Part shown: positions 24,506 to 28,751 of the stretch, in pieces
Layout: every line of letters starts with the position of its first letter
Numbering within the stretch: the stretch's first letter is position 1
From: Spirochaetaceae bacterium
Lineage (GTDB): Bacteria > Spirochaetota > Spirochaetia > Treponematales > Rectinemataceae
Direction: 5' to 3'
NCBI GenBank assembly: GCA_025356015.1
Contig: JANXYO010000025.1
Span: 1 to 33,830, forward strand
Length of the DNA stretch: 33,830 nt
Position numbers and translations under genes: made by a program
The notes under the pieces: model-generated
Told to the model about the DNA's origin: nothing
Database searches by the model: none
Seen by the model: only the letters and a program-made list of their open reading frames with translations

Positions 24506-25486
24506 TCAGAGCGTCGGATCGGGCTTCTTGTCTTCCATTGGCATGGGGGACGGAGTCTTCACGACGGCGACCGGCTTCTTCACGACGGGAGCCTTCTTGA
24601 CGGCCGATTTCTTGGCCGCAGGCTTCTTCGCCACCGGCTTCTTTGCTGCCGGCTTCTTGGCCACTGCCTTCTTGGCGACAGCCTTCTTGGCCACCGGCTT
24701 CTTCGCCACGGCCTTCTTGGCCACGGGCTTCTTCGCCACGGTCTTCTTGACCGCAGGCTTCTTCGCGACGGCTGCCTTCTTGACTGCCGGCTTCTTCGCG
24801 GCTGTCTTGGCGGCGACCTTTGTCGCGGGTTTCTTCGCAACGGCCTTGGCCTTGGTGGAGGCGGCGGTCTTTTTAGCGGCCGTCGTCTTCGGCGCGCTAG
24901 CCTTCTTGGCCGGCGCCGGCTTCTTCTCGGACGTCATCAGAGCCTCCTTCTTCGCCGGCGCGGCTTTCTTAGCCTTCACTTCGGCGACCTTTGGTTTCGC
25001 GGATTTATTCTCGCCCGCAACGGCCTCGCCTTTCGACGCGGCCGCGGCTTTCTTCTTCAATGCGGCTTCGGCCCTGGCGGCCTCGGTCGCGGCGACACGC
25101 TTGAGGGCCTCGGTGGCCTCCAGCGGGTCATAGTCCTTGCGGTCCCAGCCGCGCAGCCTGAGCTCGTCGTAAGCCCGCATCGCGACTTCCTCCATTGGCA
25201 ATCCGGGGACGGCCGAGCGTTCGGCGCAGATGTGGCCGAGGCCACAGCGGAGGAACATCGAAAGCCTGTCGTTCGGGACCGAGCGCACGGACTGTCCCGC
25301 GAGCCACGCAAGGAGAGAGTCGAGCGCCACGTTGACGACTTCCTGTGTTATCGGCCGCTCGGCCTTTTCGAGAATCCGCTCGACGCGCTCGTGAACCTTC
25401 GCGTAGTCCTGAAAGAAGGAATCATCGATGCGCTTGTCCTCGACGAGCCGGATATCGACGAGCTGAGCCGCGCTTCTTCCTGGCAT
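24506..25486 (-). CDS. Histone-H1-like Lys/Ala-rich protein with a unique N-terminal domain
   Basis: 326 residues in two parts. Residues 1-135 form an acidic-to-neutral helical domain (DDSFFQDYAKVHERVERILEK, QEVVNVALDSLLAWLAG, EEVAMRAYDELRLRG) that I do not recognise. Residues about 138-310 are a low-complexity tail of Lys, Ala, Pro and Val with at least sixteen [AV]KK units in the last 100 residues (AKKPVAKKAVAKK), like the C-terminal tails of eukaryotic H1 and bacterial H1-like proteins. Such tails bind DNA without sequence preference. A nucleoid-associated role is therefore likely for the tail, while the N-terminal domain may bind a partner. The ATG at 25484-25486 has only a distant GGGGG. 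It is a single-gene unit with a good terminator. Confidence 0.82.
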   Translation of the reverse strand: MPGRSAAQLVDIRLVEDKRIDDSFFQDYAKVHERVERILEKAERPITQEVVNVALDSLLAWLAGQSVRSVPNDRLSMFLRCGLGHICAERSAVPGLPMEEVAMRAYDELRLRGWDRKDYDPLEATEALKRVAATEAARAEAALKKKAAAASKGEAVAGENKSAKPKVAEVKAKKAAPAKKEALMTSEKKPAPAKKASAPKTTAAKKTAASTKAKAVAKKPATKVAAKTAAKKPAVKKAAVAKKPAVKKTVAKKPVAKKAVAKKPVAKKAVAKKAVAKKPAAKKPVAKKPAAKKSAVKKAPVVKKPVAVVKTPSPMPMEDKKPDPTL

Positions 25487-25715
25487 CTAGGGCGTCCCCC
25501 TTATCGACCTGCTTTCTTCTACCCACCATGATGATGCAAGTCGCGCCGCCACGCAAGCTTAATGCGCTTCACCGCGTGAACATCAACATGTTTACGCTAT
25601 GTTTTTCGGCATGTCGAGGGCAAATCGTTACCTTTCCTTTTCGGCATCTCGCAATTGAGTCATCTATGGGGGAAAAGCGGCCCCGCATCGCTCGCGGTCA
25701 TGGTCGCGGCGGCGC

Positions 25716-25721
25716 TATACT
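25716..25721 (+). promoter_or_regulatory. -10 box of the YihY-cNMP gene, probably leaderless
   Basis: TATACT lies 7 nt before the ATG at 25729, so transcription would start at the ATG. The -35 region is poor. Confidence 0.4.
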
Positions 25722-25728
25722 CACAGGC

Positions 25729-27048
25729 ATGCAGAGAATTCCGAAAGGCGCCTTGTCGGTCGCGCGACGCCTCATCTTCGCCGCCGAGCGCTTCGGAGAA
25801 CACGAGATGGCGAACCACGCGGCCGCGGGTGCCTATGCCTTCCTCCTTTCGGCCACGCCGGCCGTCCTCCTTGTCCTCGGGATCGCGTCGGCTCTCTTGA
25901 GCTCGTCTCCGGCCGCGATCGCGGGCGCGGAGCGCATCCTGGCGGCCTCACTCGGGGCCCTGGATGTCGGCGATGTCGTACGCGGCTTCTTCGCGAGACC
26001 CCTCGCCGGCTTCGCGGCGATCATCGGCATGGTGAGCCTGGTCTGGGCAGTCCGCCTCCTGGTGGTGACCGTCCAGCGCTCCTTCAAGGTGATCTGGAGC
26101 GAGCAGATCCAGAAGAAGAGCCTCGCCGGAGGAGCCTTGAGCCTGGCCCTCGAGCTTGCGGCGATAATCCTGGTCGTGGCCCTCCTCGCCGCGGCCGAGG
26201 CGATGCGCGTCTTCGTAGGCGGTCTCGAGAGCTCACTGGGGCCCGCTTTCGGCCACCTCATCGGCTACTCGGCCGGCATCGCCCCCTCCCTCATCCTCTT
26301 CACCATCGTCGCCCTGAGCTACTGGCTCATTCCAGGCCGACGTCCGCGACGCAAGGTCGCCGTCTGGGCCGCCGCGCTCTGCGTGATCATGTACGCCGTA
26401 TTCTCCTCGCTCTTCCGCGCTTTCATCGCCATCGAGCGCTACGACCTCCTGTACGGGGTAATCGGCAACCTGATCCTCCTCCTGGTCAACGTCTATACCT
26501 TCTTCAGCCTCTACCTCTACTTCGCCGAGCTCGCCTACGTCGAGGAGCATCTCGACGCCCTCCTTTTCGGCCGCTTCGGCAGGCTATCGCTCGCCGCGGC
26601 GACCTCGAGGCTTGAAGGCGCGCTCTTCATGGAGCCAGACCGCCTGTTCCGCAACTTCGGCAGGGAAGCCTCCCTGGGGACGAGCGTGTTCGAGGCCGGC
26701 GATACGGGTGAAAGCGCCTATTTCGTCCATCGCGGGAGGATCGGCATCTTCCTTTCGACGGCCGACGGCGAGGCCAAGGTCGCCGAGTGCGGCCGGGGCG
26801 AGATATTCGGCGAGATGGCCTACATCCTGGGCGAGGCGAGGAACGCCACGGCGCGGGCGGTCGAGGACTCAGTCCTCCTCGAGCTCCCGCCAGAGGTATT
26901 CGAGACCTACATAAGGTCGAGCGCCGAGGCATCCCGCAAGCTCATCTCAACGCTTTCCGAGAGGCTCAAGGGCACGAACTCAAGGCTCGCCGACGCATCG
27001 GGACCGAGGCGGGAACCCCGCTCAGAGGCTCCGCCCGAGGCCGAATGA
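25729..27048 (+). CDS. YihY/BrkB-family membrane protein fused to a cyclic-nucleotide-binding domain
   Basis: 439 residues. Residues 10-280 show the YihY/UPF0761 pattern: HEMANHAAAGAYAFLLSATPA near the start, then about six hydrophobic helices (about 35-58, 92-115, 138-158, 180-201, 211-230, 241-268), with ERYDLLYGVIGNLILLLV late. Residues about 305-405 form a cNMP-binding domain: SVFEAGDTGESAYFVHRGRIG, then a phosphate-binding cassette at 357-377 with Glu362 and Arg371, the two residues that hold the ribose and phosphate of cAMP or cGMP. YihY proteins have no agreed function. Here a cyclic nucleotide probably controls the membrane part. The frame is open upstream, and ATG 25666 is an alternative start, but neither has a good Shine-Dalgarno sequence. 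I prefer 25729 because of the -10 box. Confidence 0.85.
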   Translation: MQRIPKGALSVARRLIFAAERFGEHEMANHAAAGAYAFLLSATPAVLLVLGIASALLSSSPAAIAGAERILAASLGALDVGDVVRGFFARPLAGFAAIIGMVSLVWAVRLLVVTVQRSFKVIWSEQIQKKSLAGGALSLALELAAIILVVALLAAAEAMRVFVGGLESSLGPAFGHLIGYSAGIAPSLILFTIVALSYWLIPGRRPRRKVAVWAAALCVIMYAVFSSLFRAFIAIERYDLLYGVIGNLILLLVNVYTFFSLYLYFAELAYVEEHLDALLFGRFGRLSLAAATSRLEGALFMEPDRLFRNFGREASLGTSVFEAGDTGESAYFVHRGRIGIFLSTADGEAKVAECGRGEIFGEMAYILGEARNATARAVEDSVLLELPPEVFETYIRSSAEASRKLISTLSERLKGTNSRLADASGPRREPRSEAPPEAE

Positions 27049-27130: not shown

Positions 27131-27160
27131 TTGGAAGGGCGAGAGCGGGCGGCGTATACT
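27131..27160 (+). promoter_or_regulatory. Promoter of the MotA-like/FliG-like pair
   Basis: TTGGAA (27131-27136), 18-nt spacer, TATACT (27155-27160), followed by a leader of about 20 nt that contains GGGAGG seven nt before the ATG. Confidence 0.5.
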
Positions 27161-27186: not shown

Positions 27187-27654
27187 ATGATCCAGTGGAA
27201 CGCCGAGCTCGCGCGCAGGCTCGCCTGCCGCGAAGAGGAGAAGCGGGGCATCGCACCGCTCATTCGGCGTTTCATGGAACTCGACCGGCGCACCCGCAGC
27301 GAAGGCTTCCAGGCCCTCGAATCCGAGATACCGGCCGCCGACGATCCCCTGCTTGCCGTGGGCCTCAGGCTCGTGATGGAAGGACTCTCGGGCGAGATCC
27401 TCGAGGACATACTGGCGACCTATCTTCTGGCCGAGGAGCGCACCGGCTGGCCCTTCCTCCGCGCCTGCGTGATAGTCGAGGGCCTCATGTCACTGGCCGA
27501 GGCCGACGATCCAGCCATCATGGCGCGCAAGCTGGTAGCCTACTATGGTGCCGACCGGGCCCTGGGAGTCCTCGAGGAGCTCGAGAAGGAAGCCCCCATG
27601 GCCAGGGCAGCCACCACGGCGAAGGAAAGCGTCCGGGCCCAGGAGGAGGCGTGA
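27187..27654 (+). CDS. Soluble protein resembling the cytoplasmic parts of MotA
   Basis: 155 residues with no membrane helix or signal peptide. Residues 30-85 read like the cytoplasmic loop of MotA between TM2 and TM3 (RTRSEGFQALESEI, DDPLLAVGLRLVMEG, LEDILATYLLAEERTG). In Bacillus MotA the same region reads ARREGLLALE, then DPF..., then an EERH end. Residues 88-120 read like the segment after TM4 of MotA (LRACVIVEGLMSLAEADDPAIMARKL, compare the family pattern EG.LSIQ.G.NPRIIEEKL). TM3 and TM4, which form the ion channel, are missing. These matches are from memory of the family, so this needs a profile search. GGGAGG supports the ATG. Its stop overlaps the start of the next gene (GTGA), so the two products are probably made together. 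Confidence 0.7.
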   Translation: MIQWNAELARRLACREEEKRGIAPLIRRFMELDRRTRSEGFQALESEIPAADDPLLAVGLRLVMEGLSGEILEDILATYLLAEERTGWPFLRACVIVEGLMSLAEADDPAIMARKLVAYYGADRALGVLEELEKEAPMARAATTAKESVRAQEEA

Positions 27655-28751
27655 TCTCCTCTCTCGCATCCCTGCCCCTCGCGCGATGGACTTCCATAAA
27701 GGTGTCCCGCCAGAAGAAGGACGCACTGTTCGAGATCGCTGCACGCATCGAGTCAGTGGCCGAGAGGGCGCGAAGTGAATCGGGCCGGGCCCTTTCCCTT
27801 GCCTCGAAGGCCGAGCGCAGGAAGCCGCTTCGGCGAGGACTCGAACTTCTCGCGGGCGGAGCGGACGCCGAAGGCCTCGAGCGCGGCCTCTCCGAGATGC
27901 GGCTGGCGGCCGAGAGCGACCCGGGAGCCATCCTTGAGCTGCGCCTCACCCTCGCCGGTCTGGGAGGGATCCTCGCTGGCGAGCATCCCTATGTCCTCAT
28001 GCGCAGGATGACAGCCCACCTCGGGGCTGAGTACTTCGAGAAGACGAGCAAGTACCTCCTGTCACGGCTCAAGCGCCGGCGGCCCCACACCGATACCCTG
28101 GTCGTGCCGGGGGACATGCCAGACCTCATCCGCTCCCTCGCCCTCGACCCCCGCAACCTCGAACGCGCTGTCCACGCCGCCGGCAGGGATATCTCGGCGG
28201 CCATCCTCGCTGGCTGCCCTCAGGAGAGCCTCAACCTTGTGAAGCCCCTCTATGGAAAGATCGGGGGGGCCTCGCTCGAGGACGACGCTTCGCAACTGAG
28301 GGGAAGGCTCTCGGGCGACGAGATATCCCAGGCCCAGGCGGCCTTTGGGGACCTCGTGAGGAGCCTCGAGGAGAGGGGTGAGATCGTGCTAGGCAGCGAG
28401 GACGACCTCGCCACAGATCCCGCCTTCATAGCGGAGTTCACGCGGATCGTCCTTGCCCTCGACGAGAGGACGATCAAGGAAGCCTTCCGGCAGACATCGG
28501 GGGGCGTGATCGCCGTGGCAATGCAGGGCATGCAGCCTGTCGCCCACGAGCGCATCCTCGGCGTCCTGTCCAAGCGCGACGAGAGGAGGATACTCGACGC
28601 GATCGACGACTCCAATCCTCTGCAACGCACGGCCATCAGGGCCGCGGGAAGCGAGCTCGCCGTCCAGCTCCTCGCGGCGGCGAGCAGGTCGGGAACGAGC
28701 TCGAAGGAGACGATAGCCCGTCTCGAGCGCCTGAGGGACTGGGAAGACTGA
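27651..28751 (+). CDS. MotA-cytoplasmic-like domain fused to FliG-like repeats
   Basis: 366 residues, soluble. Residues 55-130 resemble the previous protein and the cytoplasmic parts of MotA (KPLRRGLELLAGG, ILELRLTLAGLGGILAGEHP). Residues about 162-248 resemble a FliG middle/C-terminal unit: LALDPRNLERAVHAAGRDISAAI, then LSGDEISQAQAAFGDLV and SLEERGEIVLG, which closely follows the FliG ending EEAQ...I...L.EEGEI. Residues about 268-345 are a second, shorter copy starting LALDERTIKEAFRQTSGGVIAVA. The frame is open upstream, but the GTG at 27651 has AGGAGG and overlaps the upstream stop, so I chose it. It is not the normal flagellar switch FliG, which is about 335-350 residues and has a different N-terminus. 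The function is unknown; interaction with the flagellar rotor or C-ring is an inference. Confidence 0.72.
   Translation: MISSLASLPLARWTSIKVSRQKKDALFEIAARIESVAERARSESGRALSLASKAERRKPLRRGLELLAGGADAEGLERGLSEMRLAAESDPGAILELRLTLAGLGGILAGEHPYVLMRRMTAHLGAEYFEKTSKYLLSRLKRRRPHTDTLVVPGDMPDLIRSLALDPRNLERAVHAAGRDISAAILAGCPQESLNLVKPLYGKIGGASLEDDASQLRGRLSGDEISQAQAAFGDLVRSLEERGEIVLGSEDDLATDPAFIAEFTRIVLALDERTIKEAFRQTSGGVIAVAMQGMQPVAHERILGVLSKRDERRILDAIDDSNPLQRTAIRAAGSELAVQLLAAASRSGTSSKETIARLERLRDWED

Follow-up and report, generated by a model that had tools for sequence, protein, structure and literature searches.

The window analysed here, a stretch of 33,830 nucleotides (contig JANXYO010000025.1, positions 1 to 33,830, assembly GCA_025356015.1) from a Spirochaetaceae bacterium of the Rectinemataceae, carries two coupled genes, which we call A and B (Table 1). 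Both genes, including the GTGA motif through which they overlap, lie exactly where the original prediction had placed them. Among the 28 complete copies from this family, A and B overlap or abut in 27: the A stop and the B start overlap by 4 nt in 17 copies and by 11 nt in nine, abut in one and are separated by a gap of 5 nt in the last. The coupled reading frames are intact throughout. Such an arrangement is typical for co-assembling partners, and we thus counted it in favor of A-B pairing. In the 28 upstream sequences, a TATACT, TATAGT or TATAAT box is found 5' of A in most relatives, both in flagellated members and in those lacking flagella, and no convincing match to a Sigma28/flagellar promoter was detected. 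The site seen in the window is of sigma70-type, and a promoter box of this housekeeping type precedes A in most members of both clades.

Table 1 Features of the A/B locus in the window.
Feature	Position	Strand	Remark
Sigma70-type promoter-like site TTGGAA-N18-TATACT	27131..27160	+	1 found vs 0.1 expected
Gene A	27187..27654	+	membrane-less MotA-like protein, 155 aa
A residues 22-81, MotA TM2-TM3 cytoplasmic loop block	27250..27429	+	includes R37 and E45
A residues 95-120, MotA post-TM4 cytoplasmic tail block	27469..27546	+	domain E 0.001-0.006, collinear; fold
GTGA start/stop overlap joining A and B	27651..27654	+	
Gene B	27651..28751	+	MotA-like domain and two FliG_C-like units, 366 aa, GTG start
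B residues 17-136, second, divergent MotA-cytoplasmic-like domain	27699..28058	+	hhalign, model
B residues 153-250, FliG_C-like unit 1	28107..28400	+	includes D211/D212
B residues 262-351, FliG_C-like unit 2	28434..28703	+	includes R309

Upstream of the pair, the window encodes a BrkB/YihY-type membrane protein fused to a cyclic-nucleotide-binding domain (25345-27045) and, on the minus strand, a lysine/alanine-rich protein matching the histone H1-like HC2 (24509-25486); several flagellated relatives likewise have HC2-related genes close to the pair. These neighbors, together with PnrA-type ABC genes, differ from those of the flagella-less clade, where lysC, dapB, dapD, proC, NIF3, lspA, serA and serC form a conserved surrounding and the pair sits on the opposite strand. 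No flagellar or chemotaxis genes were found beside the pair, neither in the window nor at the lysC-dapB-dapD-proC / NIF3-lspA loci. As neither set of neighbors points to a function, we rejected an assignment from gene neighborhood.

Domain architecture of A and B

Protein A gave no match in Pfam, PF01618 included. In NCBIfam it matched three models, i.e., MotA PRK08124 (E 1.3e-10), MotP (3.1e-9) and PRK09109 (2.6e-8), all of them on the TM2-TM3 loop. An HMM built from 28 A proteins aligned to true spirochaete MotA with a whole-sequence E of about 5e-14 in two ordered, collinear blocks. The first places A22-81 on MotA76-135 (domain E 3e-10) and the second A95-120 on MotA222-247 (domain E about 1e-3 to 6e-3), while ~14 residues take the place of the TM3-TM4 hairpin. 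This agrees with the original prediction that the two cytoplasmic blocks of MotA are directly joined. When the profiles of A and MotA were compared with each other, block 1 was the sole match, and block 2 derives from the HMM domain and from fold alignments; its signal is weak when taken alone (domain E at least 0.001), but order and predicted fold agree with the assignment. The AlphaFold2 model of A (pLDDT 85) matched ten MotA/PomA entries with Z-scores of 9.9-16.0 over 93-112 residues, with the next, unrelated entry at 5.9. The maximum 19-residue hydropathy means are 1.28 for A and 1.39 for B, compared to 2.0-2.6 in MotA. By this measure a membrane helix is absent from both window proteins, as had been proposed. 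Judging from profiles and model, A is a MotA reduced to its cytoplasmic part, without the membrane helices. Two cysteines of A, Cys14 (27226-27228) and Cys94 (27466-27468), are invariant in 28 aligned copies and might have a cofactor or structural role.

Protein B begins with a related domain. Its first 120 residues repeat A in diverged form (hhalign probability 96% over 123 columns), and residues 17-136 of the B model superpose on MotA (8ucs_G) with a Z-score of 14.8 and 1.9 A over 112 residues. Pfam assigned FliG_C (PF01706) to B at 4.1e-14, spread over two stretches. The FliG_C fold matches reach Z-scores of 11-12, with residues 262-351 superposing on FliG_C (3ajc) at Z 12.1 and 1.8 A over 89 residues. 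Neither FliG_N nor FliG_M gave a significant Pfam match, and both the FliF-binding N domain and the N-M-C order of FliG are absent. Of the predicted units resembling the FliG middle and C-terminal domains, the number of two thus stands and the middle-domain label does not; the sequence of unit 1, too, matches FliG_C, and the two are hence better named FliG_C-type units. The profile and structure comparisons proposed at the outset hence returned significant matches to MotA for A, and to MotA and FliG_C for B. In B, His112 (27984-27986), Cys189 (28215-28217) and His299 (28545-28547) are invariant in 28 aligned copies, with a possible cofactor or structural role. Furthermore, a helix of the first FliG-like unit, at about residue 199, is hydrophobic (1.6-2.1) in the Rectinema-type clade (L020, L022-L029), which suggests a membrane contact there.

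Retention and divergence in flagella-less Rectinemataceae

We examined 30 Rectinemataceae genomes; most genomes of the comparison are MAGs. The pair is present in 29 of them and complete in all 11 flagellated and in 17 of the 19 flagella-less genomes. B is retained in 18 of these 19: one further genome (G011) has B and an A cut by the contig end, and the last (G005) shows no match to the pair. In the 19 genomes, no FliG over cut-off, FlhA, FliM/FliN or flagellin was detected and no MotA-type PF01618 protein was evident; almost all of them contain a mostly single PF01618 protein of about 220-240 aa, which is ExbB/TolQ-like. Published descriptions of Rectinema and a related strain give rod-shaped, non-motile cells without flagella (PMC6052044). 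The NCBI genome of R. subterraneum (L099), one of the relatives of the window genome, has been reported as contaminated (PMC12236494); despite this, its A/B locus lies in the conserved neighborhood of its relatives.

In an rpoB tree with flagellated outgroups, the 19 flagella-less genomes group together in a single clade (support 100/100), so that a single flagellar loss suffices. The A+B tree splits into flagellated and flagella-less members in the same way and is therefore consistent with vertical inheritance from before this loss. Pairwise dN/dS values within the flagella-less clade range from 0.055 to 0.135 for A and from 0.05 to 0.13 for B, while flagellated pairs gave 0.23-0.28 for B. 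Both genes are under purifying selection in the flagella-less clade, and their maintenance in this lineage argues for a job other than swimming. Whether homologues occur only in flagellated spirochaetes had been raised beforehand, with widespread occurrence in non-flagellated bacteria named as evidence against a motor function; the flagella-less clade does retain them. The predicted clutch, brake, assembly factor or switch modulator consequently fails as a general explanation, and we rejected a motor-only role in this sense, while contact with a motor may exist in flagellated members.

Outside the family, a full B profile found strong matches in Rectinemataceae only among 393 sampled Spirochaetota genomes, a sample that left out Leptospira genomes above the LIC10244 cut-off. 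A non-exhaustive scan of genome collections with one short pattern gave matches only in spirochaete bins or bins without a name. B did not match plasmids, and neither A nor B matched the PADLOC anti-phage defence models, including Zorya, at E 0.1.

We then compared the charged residues of the stator-rotor contact. The E. coli contact pairs R90 of MotA with D288/D289 of FliG, and E98 with R281 (PMC12505986, PMC6079164, PMC7564593); stator docking and torque are determined by these residues in E. coli and Salmonella (PMC6079164, PMC7564593). Their equivalents are R37 (R90) and E45 (E98) in A, and D211/D212 (D288/D289) and R309 (R281) in B, with the R281-like and D288/D289-like residues sitting on different FliG_C-like units. 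In flagellated members, R37 is kept in 10/11 and E45 in 11/11, D211 in 11/11, D212 in 10/11 (plus one E), and R309 is R or K in 11/11. The flagella-less members have R37 in 6/17, E45 in 0/17, D211 in 2/17, D212 in 1/17 and R309 in 0/17. The full set is thus confined to flagellated members, where a motor contact may accordingly exist. On the sequence level, the pattern fits a release from motor-type contact after flagellar loss and may indicate that the pair was originally tied to the motor; the ancestral role of the pair could have been motor regulation. As it reflects one phylogenetic split, it may also be plain divergence. Moreover, the FliG similarity of B falls below detection in flagella-less members, and we infer the B-A interface there from family membership only.

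Related soluble proteins in other Spirochaetota

Single-chain soluble proteins in which a MotA-like domain stands ahead of FliG_C occur sporadically across Spirochaetota (G216, G237, G150, G224, G263, G262, G124, G209, G133), next to neighbors that are unrelated to each other. One single chain (L114) is matched by both the MotP (4e-21) and the FliG (3e-31) model. These hybrids keep the MotA R/E pair, several have the FliG R281-type residue, and their genomes mostly also encode a FliG. Further arrangements include three overlapping genes for soluble MotA/FliG-like proteins in another Spirochaetota family (L231:3830-6234, minus strand, in G133) and the reverse order, FliG_C followed by a MotA-like domain (L045, L046). 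An 805-aa protein (L043:8772-11189, minus strand) consists of FliG_C, a leucine-rich repeat region and two MotA-like domains; near it lie two 1027-aa proteins of one cluster, of which the one scanned contains DUF4116. In G016 (L047:7122-16791), a stand-alone MotA-like soluble protein is followed by a FliN-FliG fusion, a PAS-LuxR regulator, a chemoreceptor and a PAS histidine kinase, possibly a second switch-like module.

The related proteins also include the Leptospira family LIC10244 (NCBIfam NF047717), listed as a cytoplasmic hypothetical protein (PMC8638967). At its N-terminus it has a domain of this MotA-like type, which matches L114 at E 4e-12 and A of G013 at E 9e-6. LIC10244 is, however, a single gene, and the Rectinemataceae proteins lie far below its cut-off, with window A scoring 16.9 bits against 475 bits.

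Possible functions of the pair

Judged by the defining features tested, the pair belongs neither with the stator subunits nor with the rotor proteins. A shares with MotA/PomA the cytoplasmic loop and tail blocks and their fold, and in the flagellated clade also R90/E98. Unlike MotA/PomA, it lacks the four membrane helices that form the ion path with MotB, has no MotB partner gene and is kept without flagella. B shares with FliG the torque-domain fold and sequence, in two copies, but these stand behind a MotA-like domain, no FliG_N match is significant, the R281 and D288/D289 equivalents are split over the two units, and its retention in the flagella-less clade is not tied to a flagellum. YcgR has a PilZ fold. 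YcgR and EpsE are likewise soluble and act at MotA/FliG as brake or clutch, EpsE resembling a glycosyltransferase; their folds are unrelated to those of A and B, and they bind the motor without imitating both sides of the contact (PMC10140304, PMC3000366). The Borrelia paralogues FliG1 and FliG2 resemble B as a spirochaete duplication of FliG, but FliG1 reportedly functions within the motor via stator units, and no MotA-like domain is described for the paralogues (PMC7225975). The parts are thus of known descent and the system they form is undescribed in the open-access literature searched, in which, in line with the original prediction, we found no counterpart of A/B-type proteins.

We consider it probable, if far from certain, that A and B form a motor-derived soluble complex whose main role is independent of the flagellum. 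The two would be co-translated as a soluble cytoplasmic pair built from the parts of the stator-rotor contact, with A supplying the loop and tail of MotA minus its membrane helices and B the torque domains of FliG, lacking the N domain that binds FliF. Mutual binding of A and B is most likely, a MotA-like domain sitting on a FliG_C-like unit, so that the complex would form through the inherited MotA-FliG contact and could serve as a scaffold or switch that stands on its own. The pair would predate flagellar loss in the Rectinemataceae and have been retained afterwards. Where a motor exists, it may additionally contact it, and such a second role in flagellated members would explain the charges retained there. 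The broader reading, to which we give an even chance, is that a motor contact surface was released from the membrane into a self-contained cytosolic complex, took on a new role and was kept by a whole lineage after flagellar loss, with the stator/rotor hybrids of Spirochaetota forming an unnamed class.

Alternatively, the pair could be a motor regulator in flagellated members that imitates both sides of the contact and was re-used later by the flagella-less lineage, with A competing with MotA for FliG, or the FliG-like units of B for MotA, as a clutch, brake or control of stator number. The primary charges, kept in flagellated members and largely gone in flagella-less ones, speak for it, as do the residues conserved in the single-chain hybrids and the FliG in most of their genomes. 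Nevertheless, we regard it as rather unlikely: it leaves the retention of the pair without flagella unexplained, linkage to flagellar or chemotaxis genes is missing, the charge pattern amounts to one split and the same charges could serve A-B binding, and the critical residues of B are distributed over different units.

It appears very improbable that the pair serves a non-flagellar membrane motor of the ExbB/TolQ type as chaperone or assembly scaffold, its MotA-like domain recognizing the MotA relatives that nearly all members retain. The single ExbB/TolQ-like PF01618 protein in almost all flagella-less members and the hydrophobic B helix in Rectinema would suit this reading; yet the cytoplasmic domain of ExbB-type proteins is condensed and differs from that of MotA (PMC12505986), genetic linkage is absent, and the FliG-like units would have no known partner there. 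Decaying, function-less paralogues or a chance resemblance, suggested by fast evolution and by the lost FliG similarity of B, are scarcely credible in view of the low dN/dS in the flagella-less clade (about 0.05-0.13), the intact coupled frames and the independent sequence and fold evidence for MotA/FliG parentage.

Both sides of the MotA-FliG contact thus exist as soluble coupled proteins that are under selection in motor-less bacteria. Either this contact has a second cellular use, or it can become a regulator, and both options are testable as orthologues occur in flagellated and flagella-less relatives. In genome surveys, a match to a FliG_C or MotA profile is no proof of a flagellum.
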